Assembly (NCBI RefSeq): GCF_012974865.1
Contig: NZ_CP043633.1
Location: 62,001-126,000 of the forward strand
DNA: 64,000 bases
Source: Nonlabens sp. Ci31
GTDB lineage: Bacteria > Bacteroidota > Bacteroidia > Flavobacteriales > Flavobacteriaceae
Direction: 5' to 3'
In this document: positions 8,767 to 64,000 of the stretch, in pieces
How positions within the stretch are numbered: the first letter of the stretch is position 1
Layout of the letters: each line of letters starts with the position of its first letter
Program-made: the position numbers and the translations under genes
The notes under the pieces: generated by a model
What the model was told of the DNA's origin: nothing
The model's database searches: none
The model's input: the letters and a program-made list of their open reading frames with translations, nothing else

Positions 8767-9840
8767 TTACTCCAACTTCACTCGAGGATCCAGCCATACA
8801 TAGATCAAGTCCACCAGAATATTAATAAGGATAAACAAGGTTGCAATTACAAGAACCGCTCCTGTAATGACCGGTAAATCTTGCGTATTTAAAGCCTCTA
8901 CAATTTCTTTTCCTATTCCGTTCCAATTAAAAATATATTCTACAAACACAGCGCCCGCAAGCAAACTAGCAAACCAACCACTTACAGCAGTGATTACTGG
9001 GTTCAGTGCATTTTTAAACGCATGCCTTTTGATCACTTGCAATGTGGTGAGTCCTTTGGCATAAGCTGTAGTGATGTATTCTTGTCCCATGACTTCGAGC
9101 AGGCTGTTTCTCATCAATTGAGAAATAACGGCTAGCGGTCGTATGCCAAGTACTACTGCTGGCAAAATCAAATTGCGCCATTGCAATCGCATTGCTTCTC
9201 CATAATCATCCATTTCATATAAACTACCACTCATCTTCAGCCCCGTATATTCATGTAACACATACCCAAAAATAAAAGCAAAAATAATGGCACTAAAAAA
9301 ACTAGGAATACTCATTCCCATCGTACTGACCAGTTGAATGATTTGGTCGATCCAGCTGTTTTTATACAAAGCTGATGTCACTCCTAAAACCAATCCCAAA
9401 ACCAATGCAATACTTATAGCTGCCAGTGCTAGAATCATGGTGTTGGGCAAGGTTTCTCCTATGATATAGCTTACTTTTTTACCCGTTTTTTGAAAGGATT
9501 CTCTGAGGTAAGGCCATTTGACGTATGTAGATGTTGACCCTATAGTAAGGAGATCTATACCGGTGTACTGACCCTCGTCGTAAGTAAAATCAGATGCCTC
9601 TGTGCTGTGAAAAGACACCGGTGATAAATCATTGAGAAAATACAAATACTGAGTTCCTACAGATTGATCCAAACCGTATTTAGCTCTCACATTTGCCAGT
9701 TGCTCTTCCGACTCATTTTGCCCCAGCATCATTTGTGCTGGGTCTCCTGGTAAAAGATAGAATAGAAGGAAAATTACTGTAACGACACCATATAATGTCA
9801 GTATCGCATAACCCATTTTTTTAAGCGCATAGCTTATCAT
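8767..9840 (-). CDS. Dpp/Opp-type ABC transporter permease
   Basis: Inner membrane permease of 357 residues, DppB/OppB family. The N-terminus MGYAILTLYGVVTVIFLLFYLLPGDP is typical, and the EAA-like segment (RNSLLEVMGQEYITTAYAKGL) is present near residue 240. About six membrane segments are visible. Residues about 60-130 form a periplasmic insertion, longer than in simple DppB proteins. No DppC, ATPase or binding protein gene adjoins it, so partners must be elsewhere. The start overlaps the upstream gene by 4 bp (ATGA). Confidence 0.88.
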   Translation of the reverse strand: MISYALKKMGYAILTLYGVVTVIFLLFYLLPGDPAQMMLGQNESEEQLANVRAKYGLDQSVGTQYLYFLNDLSPVSFHSTEASDFTYDEGQYTGIDLLTIGSTSTYVKWPYLRESFQKTGKKVSYIIGETLPNTMILALAAISIALVLGLVLGVTSALYKNSWIDQIIQLVSTMGMSIPSFFSAIIFAFIFGYVLHEYTGLKMSGSLYEMDDYGEAMRLQWRNLILPAVVLGIRPLAVISQLMRNSLLEVMGQEYITTAYAKGLTTLQVIKRHAFKNALNPVITAVSGWFASLLAGAVFVEYIFNWNGIGKEIVEALNTQDLPVITGAVLVIATLFILINILVDLIYVWLDPRVKLE

Positions 9841-10949
9841 AAAGACAGTTGCTCAAAATCATTCCAATGCGACTTAGCAGTAATCACACCTTTTTTAATC
9901 GTCATTATAGATGGTGTTGACCTTACTGCAGTTTTAATTTGAGTCCCGTCTGTGGTATAAAATGGCAGCTCCACATTATTTGCATCCAGTAAAGGTTGCA
10001 ATTGGTCTATAGGATTTGCACTCAGCCCTATCACCTCATAACCTGCTTTTTGCGCTCGTTCTATAAAAGCAGCTAACTTTTGCATACCGCCTTCTTCCGC
10101 TTTGGTCATGTCGTAAATCATGACAAAGACTACTTTTTCTTTATCTAAGATTTCTTGAGTGTAGTCTTCCCCGTCTTTTTCTATAGAAAAATCATGAATT
10201 TTAGGAAGTGCTGCTTCTTGAATAATACGTGTTTCTACTTTATCATAAGCTGGTCGACCTTCTGGTGGCAATCCTTCTGTAGTAATTATTTCTTCTTTTC
10301 CATCGACCGTATAATACCAGTCGTACCCATAAATAGCTGGATGACTAGGGTCTTCCTTCATCGCATCTTCTATATCGGTTCCTATTTTATAGGCTCTAAA
10401 ATCAAGAATAGGTAAATGCATCAACACGTAATATGCGATGATAAAACAAATGATAGTGGCTACGAGAATGATGATGGAGGATTTTGCTTTCCTGCCTGCC
10501 GGCGGGCATGCCGCGAAAGCGGAACTTATTTTATCCATATTAAAAAACAAAACCAATATCATCACTAAGAGCACCACGTCTTTGTAAAAAGATTGCCATG
10601 GTGTTAAGGGAATAGCGTCACCAAAGCAACCACAATCCGTCACTTTATCAAAATATGCAGAATAGAAAGTTAAAAATGTAAAGAAAACAATCATGAGCAA
10701 TATGGACCAGATCGTAAACTTTTTCTGAAATCCTAGGAGAAGCATGATCCCTAAAACCACTTCAAAAATGACTACAAAAATAGCCATAGGAAGTGCAAAC
10801 GGCTGCAAAAACTCCAGTCCTAACACTGCGGCACTGAAATATTCATCTAATTTATAAGAGAATCCTAGAGGGTCATTTAATTTAATTAAACCACTAAATA
10901 TGAATAATATACCGACAAACCATCGACAAAAAGCAACTAATCCTTTCAT
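9837..10949 (-). CDS. BT_3928-like membrane protein: DoxX/MauE domain plus thioredoxin-like domain
   Basis: A two-part protein of 370 residues. The N-terminal half has four hydrophobic segments of DoxX/MauE type (RWFVGILFIFSGLIKLNDPLGF) and a CGCFGD motif typical of MauE-like redox proteins. After another membrane segment (about 160-180) comes a soluble domain with a thioredoxin-like core but no CxxC (VFVMIYDMTKAEEGGM; STPSIMTIKKG). The role is probably extracytoplasmic redox or respiratory, but it is not proven. Residues about 143-155 (AFAACPPAGRKA region) are encoded by a composite palindromic repeat and fall in the loop between membrane segments. Confidence 0.82.
   Translation of the reverse strand: MKGLVAFCRWFVGILFIFSGLIKLNDPLGFSYKLDEYFSAAVLGLEFLQPFALPMAIFVVIFEVVLGIMLLLGFQKKFTIWSILLMIVFFTFLTFYSAYFDKVTDCGCFGDAIPLTPWQSFYKDVVLLVMILVLFFNMDKISSAFAACPPAGRKAKSSIIILVATIICFIIAYYVLMHLPILDFRAYKIGTDIEDAMKEDPSHPAIYGYDWYYTVDGKEEIITTEGLPPEGRPAYDKVETRIIQEAALPKIHDFSIEKDGEDYTQEILDKEKVVFVMIYDMTKAEEGGMQKLAAFIERAQKAGYEVIGLSANPIDQLQPLLDANNVELPFYTTDGTQIKTAVRSTPSIMTIKKGVITAKSHWNDFEQLSL
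10486..10522. repeat. 37-bp composite palindrome (copy 2)
   Basis: Same architecture as 650-686: GCTTTC, an inner CCTGCCTGCCGGCGGGCATG palindrome, then CGAAAGCGG. It lies in frame inside the DoxX/MauE-like gene. Confidence 0.85.
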
Positions 10950-10985: not shown

Positions 10986-11083
10986 ATGTGGTATGTGGTA
11001 TGTGGTATGTGGTATGTGGTATGTGGTATGTGGTATGTGGTATGTGGTATGTGGTATGTGGTATGTGGTATGTGGTATGTGGT
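10986..11083. repeat. Perfect tandem heptamer ATGTGGT x 14
   Basis: Ninety-eight bases, exactly fourteen uninterrupted copies of a 7-bp unit, between the DoxX/MauE-like gene start and the dead four-helix-bundle gene. Perfect identity suggests recent slippage and a variable locus. Confidence 0.95.
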
Positions 11084-11087
11084 AAAA

Positions 11088-55746: not shown

Positions 55747-56018
55747 TCAAAACCTCCTCCCACATTCCCAATACCCAATACCTCACATCTATTTCAATCC
55801 AAGCTTTTTCCAGGTCCCAAAAGATTAAGGTATCTAATTCTTTATGTTTTCAAAACCTCCTCCCACATGCCTAAATATAGGACTCATACCTTATCCCAAA
55901 TGCCTCATGCCGCATACCTCAATATAGGACTCATGCCTATTTCCGCATGCCTCATCCCACATCCCTAAATAGAGGACTCGTACCTCATCCCACATGCCTC
56001 ATACCGCATTCCCAACAC
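55747..56018. repeat. Degenerate minisatellite between cysN and cysD
   Basis: TTCAAAACCTCCTCCCACAT occurs twice (about 55747 and 55848). After it, three units of about 46-48 bp start with (A)ATATAGGACTCATRCC-like sequence at about 55872, 55920 and 55966, each with CCTCATCCCACAT-like parts. The word CCCACAT resembles the complement of the ATGTGGT array at 10986. Confidence 0.75.
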
Positions 56019-58816: not shown

Positions 58817-60712
58817 ATGAATTACATCACCGTAGAAAACGTTACCAGAGCCTTTGCCGATAAAGTGCTTTTTAAAGACCTTTCCATTGGAATCAATCAA
58901 GGACAAAAGATAGGTTTTGTAGCAAAAAACGGCTATGGTAAATCCTCGCTGCTCAACATCATCACTCGTGCTGAAGAACCAGATAGCGGTAATGTATCTT
59001 ATCGAACCGATTTGAGAATGGCCTTCTTATCTCAAGAACCCAATCTCAATCCAGACATGACTATTGAAGAAGTGATTCTAGGTAGTGATGTACCTACCAT
59101 GAAAATCATCGCCGATTACGAGCACTCGATGGCAAATCCCGACGATGCTGACATGATGCAAAAGGCACTAGATGCTATGGATGCAGCAAATGCATGGGAT
59201 TTTGAAACCAAATACCGACAAATTCTCTCCAAACTACGACTAGACGACTTGACCCAAAAGGTAGGGAAACTAAGTGGTGGACAAAAGAAACGTATCGCTA
59301 TGGCAATGGCATTGCTCTCAGACCCGCAGCTGTTGATCATGGATGAGCCTACCAACCACCTGGATCTAGAAATGATCGAGTGGTTAGAAGCTTATTTTAA
59401 ACAAGAAGACTATACCATTCTTATGGTCACTCACGACCGTTATTTCTTAGATCGGGTATGTAATGAAATTATAGAACTGGACCAAGGACAACTGTACACC
59501 TACAAAGGAAATTATTCTTACTATGTAGAGAAAAAGCAGGAACGCCTGGAAGTAGAACAAACCAATCAAGAAAAAGCACAACAGCTTTTTAAAAAGGAGC
59601 TGACCTGGATGCGTCGCCAGCCAAAAGCGAGACGTACCAAATCCAAGTCTCGAATAGAAGATTTCAATCAAATTAAGGAAGCCGCAAGCAACAGACGTAA
59701 AGATCATCAAGTAGAATTGGAGATCAATATGCAACGCTTGGGAACTAAAGTGGTGGAATTGCACAAGATCAGTAAATCCTTTGGCGACACCCATTTGATC
59801 AATGACTTTTCCTATAACTTCCTAAGGGGAGAACGCTTGGGAATTATCGGTAAAAATGGAACTGGAAAATCGACTTTCTTAAACATGATTACCGGAGCAT
59901 TGGTACCAGATGCTGGAAAAGTAGTGATTGGAGAAACCGTAAAAATCGGTTACTACACGCAAAACGGAATGGAAACAAAACCAGGGCAAAAAGTCATCGA
60001 TGTGGTCAAACAATACGGTGAATACATACCCTTGAACAAAGGAAAGATCATCAGTGCCAGCCAACTGCTGGAACGTTTTCTTTTTGACAATAAGAAGAAA
60101 CACGATTTTGTAGAAAAACTAAGTGGTGGAGAAAAAAAGAGGCTGTACTTGTGTACGGTTCTTATTCAGAATCCCAATTTCTTGATTCTTGATGAACCTA
60201 CTAATGACCTGGATATTCCTACCTTAAACGTATTGGAGAATTTCTTGATGGATTTCCCTGGATGTATTATCGTAGTAAGTCACGACCGTTACTTTATGGA
60301 TAAGATTGTAGATCATTTGTTTGTTTTTAATCAGTCGGGGACTATTACCGATTTCCCTGGAAACTACAGCGACTTTAGAGCTTATGTAGGAAATACAGAC
60401 CTTGTTTTAGACAAAGACACCGAAGAAGAAGCAGCAGCGGCAGTAGTCCCTGTTCCAAAAGCAATCGCAGCACCAAAATCTGAACCTGCTTCTGGACCTA
60501 CTCGAGAGCAACAAAAAAGGCTTTCTAGAATGGAAAACAAGATCAAGCAACTAGAAGAGCAAAAGAAAAAACTTCAAGACAGTTTCCTAAATACAGACAT
60601 CCATGCTGATCAAATGACGGAGAACTCTATCCAATTGGAGAAAACAAAAGCTCAACAAGAAGAAGTAGAAATGGAATGGCTGGAATTGAGTGAACAGATT
60701 GCGGCCAACTAG
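58817..60712 (+). CDS. ABC-F family ATPase (Uup/EttA-like)
   Basis: Soluble tandem-ATPase protein of 631 residues, ribosome-associated in characterised relatives. The first domain has FVAKNGYGKSSLLNII, LSGGQKKRIAMAMAL and LLIMDEPTNHLDLEM; the second has IIGKNGTGKSTFLNMI, LSGGEKKRLYLC and LILDEPTNDLDI. Between them lies the P-site tRNA interaction-type linker (LTWMRRQPKARRTKSKSR). A C-terminal coiled coil (about 570-631) is present, as in Uup. No transmembrane segments. Confidence 0.93.
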   Translation: MNYITVENVTRAFADKVLFKDLSIGINQGQKIGFVAKNGYGKSSLLNIITRAEEPDSGNVSYRTDLRMAFLSQEPNLNPDMTIEEVILGSDVPTMKIIADYEHSMANPDDADMMQKALDAMDAANAWDFETKYRQILSKLRLDDLTQKVGKLSGGQKKRIAMAMALLSDPQLLIMDEPTNHLDLEMIEWLEAYFKQEDYTILMVTHDRYFLDRVCNEIIELDQGQLYTYKGNYSYYVEKKQERLEVEQTNQEKAQQLFKKELTWMRRQPKARRTKSKSRIEDFNQIKEAASNRRKDHQVELEINMQRLGTKVVELHKISKSFGDTHLINDFSYNFLRGERLGIIGKNGTGKSTFLNMITGALVPDAGKVVIGETVKIGYYTQNGMETKPGQKVIDVVKQYGEYIPLNKGKIISASQLLERFLFDNKKKHDFVEKLSGGEKKRLYLCTVLIQNPNFLILDEPTNDLDIPTLNVLENFLMDFPGCIIVVSHDRYFMDKIVDHLFVFNQSGTITDFPGNYSDFRAYVGNTDLVLDKDTEEEAAAAVVPVPKAIAAPKSEPASGPTREQQKRLSRMENKIKQLEEQKKKLQDSFLNTDIHADQMTENSIQLEKTKAQQEEVEMEWLELSEQIAAN

Positions 60713-60786: not shown

Positions 60787-62557
60787 TAACATCGCGTCAA
60801 ACCCTTTGCGTTTGCAGCAAAGCTGCCAAACTTTTTTCCTTCAACTGAAGGGAAAGGCTGTTGTTGCGCGATCCACATAGGTCCAGAATTAAACCTACGG
60901 CTGCTACATCTAGTAGGAATAGTCAGGCATTTAAAAAAGCTTTTGTACATCTACCAAGCCTGTACCTCCATAAAATTAAAAGCTTTCCCCTTATAAATAA
61001 AGGGGAACATTTCATTCGTGTATGAATGAAATAAGGGTTTACACGGTGCTGGAAGCTCTCTATACCTGTAGCTCTGCTCGCAATTCCAACATCACCTCAA
61101 ACCCTTTGCGTTTGCAGCAAAGCTGCCAAACTTTTTCCCTTCAACTGAAGGGAAAGGCTGTTGTTGCGCGATCCACATAGGTCCAGAATTAAACCTACGG
61201 CTGCTACATCTAGTAGGAATAGTCAGGCATTTAAAAAAGCTTTTGTACATCTACCAAGCCTGTACCTCCATAAAATTAAAAGCTTTCCCCTTATAAATAA
61301 AGGGGAACATTTCATTCGTGTATGAATGAAATAAGGGTTTACACGGTGCTGGAAGCTCTCTATACCTGTAGCTCTGCTCGCAATTCCAACATCACCTCAA
61401 ACCCTTTGCGTTTGCAGCAAAGCTGCCAAACTTTTTCCCTTCAACTGAACGGAAAGGCTGTTGTTGTGCGATTCACATAGGTCCAGAATTAAACTTACAG
61501 CTGCTGCATCTAATGGGAATATTCAGGCATTTAAAAAAGCTTTTGTACATCTACCAAGACTGTACCTCCATAAAACTAAAAGCTTTCCCCTTATAAAATA
61601 AAGGGAACATTTCATTCGTGTACGAATGAAATAAGAGGTTACACGGTGCGATAAGCTCTCTATACCTGTAGCTCTGCTCGCAATTCCAACATCACCTCAA
61701 ACCCTTTGCGTTTGCAGCAAAGCTGCCAAACTTTTTCCCTTCAACTGAACGGAAAGGCTGTTGTTGTGCGATTCACATAGGTCCAGAATTAAACCAACAG
61801 CTGCTGCATCTAATGGGAATAGTCAGGCATTTAAAAAAGCTTTTGTACATCTACCAAGACTGTACCTCCATAAAACTAAAAGCTTTCCCCTTATAAAATA
61901 AGGGGAACATTTCATTCGTGTACGAATGAAATAAGGGGTTACACGGTGCTGGAAGCTCTCTATACCTGTAGCTCTGCTCGCAATTCCAACATCACCTCAA
62001 ACCCTTTGCGTTTGCAGCAAAGCTGCCAAACTTTTTCCCTTCAACTGAACGGAAAGGCTGTTGTTGTGCGATTCACATAGGTCCAGAATTAAACCTACAG
62101 CTGCTGCATCTAATGGGAATAGTCGGGCATTTAAAAAAGCTTTTGTACATCTACCAAGACTGTACCTCCATAAAACTAAAAGCTTTCCCCTTATAAAATA
62201 AGGGGAACATTTCATTCGTGTACGAATGAAATAAGGGGTTACACGGTGCGAGAAGCTCTCTATACCTGTAGCTCTGCTCGCAATTCCAACATCACCTCAA
62301 ACCCTTTGCGTTTGCAGCAAAGCTGCCAAACTTTTTTCCTTCAACTGAACGGAAAGGCTGTTGTTGTGCGATTCACATAGGTCCAGAATTAAACCTACAG
62401 CTGCTGCATCTAATGGGAATAGTCGGGCATTTAAAAAAGCTTTTGTACATCTACCAAGACTGTACCTCCATAAAACTAAAAGCTTTCCCCTTATAAAATA
62501 AGGGGAACATTTCATTCGTGTACGAATGAAATAAGGGGTTACACGGTGCTGGAAGCT
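60787..62557. repeat. 300-bp tandem repeat array, about 5.9 copies
   Basis: The sequence recurs at exactly 300-bp spacing; CACCTCAAACCCTTTGCG lies near 61093, 61393, 61693, 61993 and 62293, and the first copy starts at about 60787. Copies 1 and 2 are identical over at least 240 bp, and copies 5 and 6 nearly so. Two sub-types exist (copies 1-2 against 3-6). Each unit holds several inverted repeats: GTTTGCAGC/GCTGCCAAAC, TTCCCCTTAT/ATAAGGGGAA, and ATTTCATTCGT/ACGAATGAAAT. No gene is recognised; short open frames of 72 residues in two copies look accidental. Confidence 0.95.
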
Positions 62558-62560
62558 ACC

Positions 62561-62935
62561 TCAAGAGCTTTTCTCCTTCACTACATCTCTTATCCATTCA
62601 AAAATATGTTCCAGATTCTCAAAGACCATTTTATTCTCAAATCTAAGAATAGTAAAACCCAACTCTACTAGCTCTTGCTCCCTCATTTCATCTCTTTGCT
62701 GCGCTTCTGGATGCTTATGAATTTCTCCATCTAGTTCAATGATTAAGCCTATAGATGCACAATAAAAATCGACAATATAATTACGAATAGAATGTTGCCT
62801 TTGAAAACGCAAACCGCCGAGTTGTTTTGATTTGAGGTGAGACCACAAATACTTTTCTGCCGGAGTGCTATTGTTACGCAGTTTTCTTCGGTAGTATTCT
62901 AAATACTTTTTGGTATGGATTTGTTTTTTATTCAA
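62561..62935 (-). CDS. DUF559 protein (Vsr-like endonuclease fold)
   Basis: A 124-residue protein of the DUF559 family. Residues 12-34 (EYYRRKLRNNSTPAEKYLW) and the core LGGLRFQRQHSIRNYIVDFYC show the family pattern. LIIELDGEIHK then gives the catalytic-type ELDG that resembles PD-(D/E)XK/Vsr nucleases. LGFTILRFENKMVF follows near the end. DNA cleavage by DUF559 proteins has not been generally shown. The gene ends 3 bp after the 300-bp repeat array, and a partial repeat unit lies just beyond its start, so it is embedded in repeat DNA. Confidence 0.85.
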   Translation of the reverse strand: MNKKQIHTKKYLEYYRRKLRNNSTPAEKYLWSHLKSKQLGGLRFQRQHSIRNYIVDFYCASIGLIIELDGEIHKHPEAQQRDEMREQELVELGFTILRFENKMVFENLEHIFEWIRDVVKEKSS

Positions 62936-62949
62936 GTTAGGAAGATAAC

Positions 62950-63015
62950 AAAAAGCATTTCTATATCTAACAACCTAGTACCTCCACAAAACTAAAAGCG
63001 TTCCCCTTATAAATC
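62950..63015. repeat. Partial, diverged copy of the 300-bp repeat
   Basis: CCACAAAACTAAAAGC and TTCCCCTTATAAA match the segment CCATAAAACTAAAAGC... of each array unit, with an alignable length of about 65 bp. The DUF559 gene therefore lies between homologous segments, in place of part of a unit. Confidence 0.75.
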
Positions 63016-63082: not shown

Positions 63083-64000
63083 CTACTTATCCTCCACAGG
63101 CTCTGCAAAGAGGTCAAAATCTTCTGCTTCTGTGATCACTACATTCACAAAAGAACCTACCGATAAATAATGCTTATCTGCATCGATCAACACTTCGTTA
63201 TCTACATCTGGACTGTCAAATTCGCTACGGCCTACAAAATGATTTCCGCGTTTGCGATCGATCATTACTCTAAATTCTTTACCTATCTTCTGCTGATTCA
63301 GTTCCCACGAGATTTGAGATTGGATCTCCATGATCTCGTTAGCACGTTCTTGCTTTACATCTGCAGGAACATCATCTTCTAGCTTGTAAGCATGTGTATT
63401 TTCTTCGTGAGAGTAGGTAAAACATCCCATACGTTCAAAACGTTGGTCACTTACCCATTGCTTTAAAATCTCAAAATCTTCTTCTGTCTCTCCAGGATAA
63501 CCTACGATCAATGTGGTACGTATCGCCATTTCTGGAACCAACGTTCTGAATTTTTCTAGAAGTGCATTCGTTTTTTCAAAAGTGGTTCCACGACGCATGG
63601 ATTTCAATACAGGCGTAGAAATATGTTGTAGCGGGATATCTAGGTAATTACACACCTTAGGCTCGCTTTTCATGACGTCTAAAACATCCAGTGGAAAACC
63701 AGTTGGGAACGCATAATGCATACGTATCCATTCGATTCCTTCTACTTTTGCTAGCTCCCTTAATAATTCGGCTAGTCTTCTTTCTTTATACAAATCAAGA
63801 CCGTAATAGGTCAAATCTTGAGCAATGAGTATCAATTCTTTTACCCCTTTTGCCGCAAGCTTTTCAGCCTCGATAATAAGGTTTTCAATAGGGGTGCTTT
63901 TATGTCCACCACGCATTAATGGAATTGCACAAAAAGAACATGGTCGGTCACAACCTTCCGCTATTTTAAAATACGCGTAATTTTTTGGTGTGGTCGTTAC
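63083..64000 (-). CDS. rimO: RimO, ribosomal protein S12 methylthiotransferase (5' end outside window)
   Basis: Radical SAM enzyme that methylthiolates Asp88/89 of ribosomal protein S12. The frame stays open to the window edge, and its N-terminal part is missing. The cluster motif is EGCDRPCSFCAIP (CxxxCxxC) near 63945. RGGHKSTPIENLIIEAEKL follows, with ELILIAQDLTYYG, DIPLQHIS and VGYPGETEEDFE. A TRAM-type domain ends the protein. The stop codon is at 63083. Confidence 0.93.
   Translation of the reverse strand, partial: VTTTPKNYAYFKIAEGCDRPCSFCAIPLMRGGHKSTPIENLIIEAEKLAAKGVKELILIAQDLTYYGLDLYKERRLAELLRELAKVEGIEWIRMHYAFPTGFPLDVLDVMKSEPKVCNYLDIPLQHISTPVLKSMRRGTTFEKTNALLEKFRTLVPEMAIRTTLIVGYPGETEEDFEILKQWVSDQRFERMGCFTYSHEENTHAYKLEDDVPADVKQERANEIMEIQSQISWELNQQKIGKEFRVMIDRKRGNHFVGRSEFDSPDVDNEVLIDADKHYLSVGSFVNVVITEAEDFDLFAEPVEDK

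Follow-up and report, generated by a model that had tools for sequence, protein, structure and literature searches.

A 300-bp hairpin repeat array beside a DUF559 nuclease gene in Nonlabens sp. Ci31: probable local expansion of a mobile double-hairpin element

The repeat array and its neighborhood

The window analyzed in this study is a stretch of 64,000 nucleotides of Nonlabens sp. Ci31 (contig NZ_CP043633.1, positions 62,001 to 126,000), whose genome (G000) is a single contig of 3.74 Mb. As shown in Table 1, a tandem array of a 300-bp unit lies between an ABC-F type ATPase gene and a RimO/MiaB-type gene, the latter of which probably extends beyond the window end. Tandem Repeats Finder reported 5.9 copies with a period of 300, 97% matches, 0% indels, and a score of 3232, the top score among its eight rows for the window, in agreement with the roughly six copies noted in a preliminary description of this DNA. 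That description had sorted the copies into two subtypes arranged in blocks (copies 1-2 and 3-6) and had proposed gene conversion or unequal exchange. The two blocks were upheld by pairwise comparison. Copies 1 and 2 are 99.0% identical, copies 3-6 are mutually 96.7-98.9% identical, and identity between the two blocks is 92.1-95.2%; 13 of the 25 variable columns split exactly between the blocks. This pattern fits local duplication and homogenization. It had also been stated that there is no gene here. This is true of the inside of the array, where the longest ORF is 72 aa, but a solo DUF559 nuclease gene had been overlooked, although its stop codon lies only 4 bp from the array end.

Table 1. 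Features of the array locus in window coordinates
Feature	Position	Strand	Basis
ABC-F type ATPase gene, left neighbor of the array	58817..60712	+	ORF list, domain search, orthologous sites in relatives
Tandem array, 5.9 units of 300 bp	60788..62557	.	Tandem Repeats Finder, sequence comparison
Unit starts in the array	60788, 61080, 61380, 61680, 61980, 62280		
Element B in copy 1 (P1, P2, tail AAGGGTTT)	60981..61044	+	Core comparison, fold z -7.1, alignment
Element B, copies 2-6	+300, +600, +900, +1200, +1500 from copy 1		
Element A in copy 2 (P1 TTTCCCTT..AAGGGAAA, P2 GTTTGGCAGC..GCTGCAAAC, tail AAAGGGTTT)	61098..61161	-	R1 match, fold z -3.0, alignment
Element A, remaining copies	300-bp steps from copy 2		
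Solo DUF559 gene, 124 aa, PD-(D/E)XK / EDxHD-like nuclease, putative mobilizer	62561..62935	-	Pfam E 2e-33, conserved D, E, D, H residues, fold search
Truncated unit copy (unit positions 155-218), 64 bp, far side of DUF559 gene	62950..63013	+	84% identity, E 3e-13
RimO/MiaB-type gene, right neighbor, Radical SAM and TRAM domains, 277-aa ORF	63083..63916	-	Domain search, full-length relative in L155

Two other tandem repeats were observed elsewhere in the window. One is a perfect 14-copy ATGTGGT repeat at 10986-11084, just past the end of the ORF at 9837-10949, and the other is a 47-bp repeat at 55866-56009 (3.1 copies, 78% matches).

The same site was compared among 23 genomes of the genus. 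Of these, 22 yielded the ABC-F gene, and in six of the 22 the RimO-type gene follows it as the next conserved one. In three of the six (G000, G009, and G010), the gap holds a DUF559 gene and repeats, G010 having the simplest form. The gap of G002 is 87 bp long with a terminator-like hairpin. Those of G006 (243 bp) and G013 (734 bp) have DUF559-less palindromic repeats, which were judged by eye to be related. The DUF559 gene and its repeats have been gained or lost at this site within the genus.

Build and conservation of the element

At DUF559 loci of other genera, the general build of the element consists of a hairpin P1 (for example, GCTCCTCCCTTT..AAAGGGAGG, of the CCCCTT..AAGGGG type), a short linker, a hairpin P2, and a tail (CGGAGGGTT), which repeats the 3′ strand of P1. 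The P2 sequence varies from locus to locus, with the structure kept. It was found that each unit of the window array has four stem-loops. They form two elements of one build, with two stem-loops each, in opposite orientation and with different P2 hairpins; A is on the minus strand and B on the plus strand. Both were equated with the general build by eye, and A of copy 2 is backed by R1, a covariance model made from 19 elements of other genera (match at 61098-61158, minus strand, E 0.0059). Since R1 detects this one of the 12 window elements, element B rests on the build read by eye and on core (located at 61881) and alignment comparisons. Folded as single-stranded DNA, the B element gave a z of -7.1, and the A element gave -3.0 in copy 2 and only -1.8 in copy 5. 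The P1 stem of A is mismatched in copies 3-6, including the low-scoring copy 5.

Are these hairpins conserved as structures? In the 19 elements from other loci, 97.7% of the P1 and P2 cells are paired, and 63 cells have changes on both sides, compared with 15 in shuffles. The P2 conservation is overstated in this set because the 19 seeds were chosen by a pattern requiring a P2 stem. P2 was rechecked in segments chosen by P1 and tail sequence alone, with no P2 requirement. A stem of at least 6 bp is present in 41 of 46 distinct middle segments, and the mean best stem is 7.6, compared with 4.6 in shuffled segments. The A variants of the genus (n=18) have 24 double-change cells, compared with 9.9 in shuffles, and 82.7% of their cells are paired, where five rows out of register in the inner stem were scored as unpaired. 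The B variants (n=12) have 98.6% pairing, with one pair changed on both sides from A-T to C-G (5 cells versus 2.1). The tail could also pair with the 5′ strand of P1 in 93.7% of cells. No covariation was found for this pairing; thus, the alternative stem is not claimed here. In summary, relatives of the unit are present in other genomes, and their hairpins show compensatory changes rather than random drift, so that the view of the array as a DNA-level repeated element with conserved hairpins, which such drift would have contradicted, is borne out.

Association with DUF559 genes

I analyzed 80 DUF559 loci, a non-random sample consisting of the best 80 of 571 relatives. Direct repeats cover 25% and 31% of the two 250-bp flanks of these DUF559 genes and 0.2-7% per bin beyond 1 kb. 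Nine of the 80 loci were excluded because of their length (too great or too small) or their closeness to a contig end. Of the other 71 DUF559 genes, 30 are bracketed by a direct repeat, versus two of 197 control ORFs, and any repeat is present within 500 bp of 43 of the 71 versus 25 of the 197. Thus, 41 of the 71 loci are unbracketed and 28 have no repeat within 500 bp.

R1 gave 199 matches at the best 80 loci, from which P1-only, partial, and weaker ones were excluded. Ninety-eight of the 116 counted matches fall within 500 bp of DUF559, a zone comprising 10.7% of the bases, and 52 of the 80 loci have such a match. Among the loci held out of training, which are still kin of the training loci, 41 of 69 have a near match and 28 have none; all these association statistics are uncorrected for shared ancestry. 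Sixteen element copies begin between -3 and +4 bp from the DUF559 stop codon. The matches occur in both orientations, with 25 plus and 14 minus downstream of the gene and 19 and 11 upstream. Acinetobacter, Methylobacter, and Desulfobacterales loci have near matches with low scores of 22-24 bits. Of 24 sources from the genus of the host, window included, 15 have an R1 match at E 0.01 or better and nine have none. A scan of viral contigs gave two distant DUF559 loci. In a Rodentibacter locus (L107), a DUF559 gene precedes a stretch of tandem repeats (about 1 kb, period near 95 bp) with no R1 match, which are possibly another element family.

Does the association also hold for whole genomes? R1 was scored on up to 150 candidates per genome in the genus set and up to 37 in the family set, and solo DUF559 counts per genome were tallied by hand. 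Any DUF559 was found in 14 of the 23 genus genomes. Genomes with more intact solo DUF559 genes tend to have more R1 copies (Spearman 0.67, Mann-Whitney p 0.007, ancestry uncorrected). Genomes with a solo DUF559 gene (n=11) have 0-28 R1 copies; the host genome has 28, the window array being excluded as below threshold. Eleven of the 12 genomes lacking a solo gene have 0-3 copies, and G006, which has a DUF559 split in two with a stop, has 10. R1 matches, from one to 10, are thus present in six genus genomes with no intact solo gene. In the family, R1 matches at E 1e-6 were found in 24 of 149 genomes, and solo DUF559 is present in 20 of these 24 versus 19 of the 125 R1-negative genomes (Fisher 1e-10, or 5e-8 minus five training genomes, ancestry uncorrected).

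The dispersed copies were also compared. Among 20 copies in G121 and G164, 12 diverge from all others just past the tail, and the remaining eight form pairs sharing more sequence, as judged by eye. Thus, in these two genomes the element has a boundary past its tail, and copies of it have been dispersed. In G138, 17 of 19 copies have 70 bp or more in common on each side. DUF559 genes are duplicated in tandem together with repeats at three loci (L152, L154, and L157). Large arrays with no DUF559 match lie at 2436500-2449500 of the host genome (L326). They occupy the gaps of a conserved neighborhood including a 1139-aa SecA-like ORF and comprise at least 14 R1 elements. Another host region of about 10 kb (L153, 2216000-2227000) combines numerous diverged 117-167 bp repeats with three copies of DUF559, one of which contains a stop.

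The DUF559 protein and its in-frame insertions

D56, E67, D69, H73, and D82 are invariant among 47 aligned DUF559 sequences. The structure of the window protein was predicted with a pLDDT of 86.8. A fold search gave a solved relative, 3hrl, at the top, followed by the homing endonuclease I-Bth0305I (3r3p; E 1e-4, TM-score on target 0.78). Next came 5hmC-specific restriction enzymes and proteins of the mitoribosome, and Vsr structures ranked 11th and 15th. The predicted fold and the active-site residues agree on a homing-endonuclease-like (EDxHD / Vsr-like) protein.

It was revealed that DUF559 domains also reside in frame inside housekeeping genes, namely LeuRS (at two sites), MetH, HisD (C-terminal), HisH, and RecG. 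They also form N-terminal fusions to HemD and to a threonine-dehydratase-like protein. Ten host proteins were confirmed by Pfam or NCBIfam. Many of these domains are flanked by coded peptides resembling palindromes, as judged by eye. LeuRS site 1 is occupied in four of 22 genus genomes, the host genome among them, and 22 of the 23 genomes have one LeuRS editing domain each; thus, there are essential enzymes whose sole detected gene copy bears a nuclease domain. At this site (L118 and L126), uninterrupted LeuRS has a Cys pair in the loop (WCTQENKVVSNDDDRDC), and the four occupied alleles lack it. The MetH insert is present in five of the 10 genus genomes having the gene, and the HisD insert in five of 22. 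Occupied and empty alleles therefore coexist in the genus; for example, the host parts of MetH in G004 and G007 are 98% identical, and only G004 has the insert. The LeuRS and MetH frames read through the insert with no stops. No intron or intein was seen around DUF559 genes save in one protein of another lineage, and no Rfam match at gathering score was found in the window, which bears on an intron there. The exception is a 717-aa MuF-like protein (L237:863-3016, minus strand), which, by eye, looks like an intein with a Vsr-like nuclease; this is a separate, more ordinary homing context.

The palindromes also occur in genes alone. The right-hand palindrome of HisD, or a mutated form, is present with no DUF559 in G004, G007, G009, and G020. 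A near relative of this palindrome is inserted in frame at LeuRS site 2 in six of the 21 genus genomes shown (TTTTCCCC..GGGGAAATGCCGCAGGCAATGGGGC type), and a close relative of the LeuRS site 2 insert lies between hisD and hisC. Thus, palindrome-only alleles exist at both HisD and LeuRS site 2. A search with the palindrome of this type hit 42 places, spread over 13 of 23 genomes, and the reversed control hit none.

In a tree of 162 DUF559 domains (122 columns, with 61 of 159 inner branches unresolved and host labels assigned by script from sequence motifs), in-gene domains cluster by host gene. MetH, HisD, HemD, and RecG account for one change each and the LeuRS sites for two each, and there are at least three switches between solo and in-gene states. 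The HemD fusions fall among solo genes, including that of the window. The LeuRS insert of G014 is 41-46% identical to the others at the same site, versus 76-81% for the host protein, which suggests a separate arrival. The MetH inserts are 71-84% identical versus 84-92% for their hosts. Since inserts diverge faster than hosts, with no excess identity, recent between-species spread of in-gene inserts was not seen.

Interpretation

These results suggest that the array probably arose by local expansion of a mobile double-hairpin element, one which belongs with the adjacent DUF559 nuclease gene. The DUF559 protein may cut or nick DNA at hairpins or at hairpin targets. Repair would then carry a copy of the element to a new site, at times together with the nuclease gene. 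Once two copies are adjacent, unequal recombination or hairpin slippage might build and homogenize arrays. Growth by unequal exchange would be independent of an adjacent nuclease gene, since the large arrays at 2436500-2449500 have none.

This last point is shared with another explanation, in which intergenic palindromes of a generic kind are amplified by replication slippage and recombination, with DUF559 as a bystander in the same permissive gaps. The DUF559-less arrays in the host genome and the R1 elements in genomes lacking solo DUF559 agree with it and indicate that an adjacent gene is not required for amplification; the blocks within the array also fit plain unequal exchange. However, the association with DUF559 is strong relative to controls and recurs at the genome level, 16 elements start flush with the DUF559 stop codon, and DUF559 sits between coded palindromes even within genes. 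Thus, I consider a mere bystander unlikely.

The preliminary description had also suggested a structured RNA. Omega RNAs are the RNA partners of IscB and TnpB, and the hairpins might likewise be transcribed and act in an RNA-guided or RNA-processing system with the nuclease, whose ORF they adjoin; the free sequence and kept structure of P2 would suit such a partner. But there were 0 Rfam matches at gathering score in the 64 kb, the one match in the array region (E 0.59) being at chance level, the elements lie in both orientations on both sides of the gene, and each array unit bears two of them on opposite strands. Because both orientations occur beside the nuclease gene and a relative lies within coding frames, DNA fits better than RNA, and an RNA partner is very improbable. 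About as little credence is due to DUF559 as a repair enzyme, that is, a Vsr-like mismatch or hairpin-processing protein persisting near palindromes. The Vsr structures in the fold list are in its favor, as is Caulobacter VsrA, a DUF559-domain protein described in the available text of PMC12907096 as a predicted mismatch-repair endonuclease. Against this, DUF559 is patchy (any form in 14 of 23 genus genomes), it is duplicated in tandem with its repeats, and it resides in frame inside other genes; I regard this reading as very improbable too.

Returning to a mobile element belonging with the nuclease, the finding of DUF559 flanked by similar palindromes both between genes and in frame within essential genes points to an undescribed selfish element. 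In the open-access literature searched, I found no earlier description of DUF559 paired with hairpin repeats. It is conceivable, as a tentative extension, that DUF559 proteins are the missing mobilizers of protein-coding palindromes, which would spread among gaps, form arrays, reside unspliced in frame, and remain as palindrome-only scars after loss of the nuclease. If so, the nuclease gene rides between or within double-hairpin palindromes and settles in enzymes such as LeuRS. The spread of palindromes in bacteria, above all their in-frame entry into genes, had no known enzyme, and DUF559 is now a candidate. This would give a role to a Pfam family still named for unknown function. The question is testable, since the candidate enzyme comes with a defined DNA substrate, and alleles in all three states (occupied, empty, and palindrome-only) occur in nature.

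Comparison with known systems

Several known systems were considered for the array. A search of 72,556 plasmid records and 50,697 phage records gave no match to the unit, which argues against a plasmid or phage origin. The defense-associated array offered in the preliminary description was not supported by PADLOC on the three genes: DUF559 gave two weak nuclease-domain matches, ABC-F matched as a generic ATPase, and the RimO-type gene gave none.

REP palindromes are short, intergenic, and tied to one single-strand-acting enzyme, the RAYT (Y1) transposase, and they have a conserved tetranucleotide tag (GTAG or CGTC) at the palindrome foot. The present elements are similar in being short palindromes in intergenic gaps linked to one enzyme. 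They differ in that the enzyme is a PD-(D/E)XK nuclease, not Y1/HuH, and in their tail, two-hairpin build, and in-frame residence in genes. All PF01797 matches in the genome are more than 300 kb from the array, the nearest being at 441868-442203 versus 122788-124557 for the array in contig coordinates; thus, REP/RAYT was rejected by enzyme. A different cluster of R1 elements, at 2440246-2445683, is some 11 kb away from fragments of Y1. I-Bth0305I, the best structural match to the DUF559 protein after 3hrl, homes into an intron or similar site; in contrast, no intron or intein was noticed around the DUF559 genes other than in the intein-like L237.

The double-hairpin elements of Allomyces mitochondria and the GC clusters of yeast are repeated and apparently mobile, and some lie inside genes and are kept in transcripts, according to the available text of PMC2800124. 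Compared by description, the mitochondrial elements share the two-hairpin form, the repetition, and the apparent mobility; they are organellar, and that text names no dedicated nuclease. The Rickettsia palindromic elements occupy intergenic positions and also lie, in frame, inside conserved protein genes (PMC2229807, available text). The likeness to the LeuRS site 2 insert, an in-frame palindrome in a conserved gene, is a functional one drawn from description. Transposases were hypothesized for the Rickettsia elements without support, and no enzyme is named in the available text (PMC2229807), whereas in the present case the palindromes enclose or adjoin a nuclease gene.
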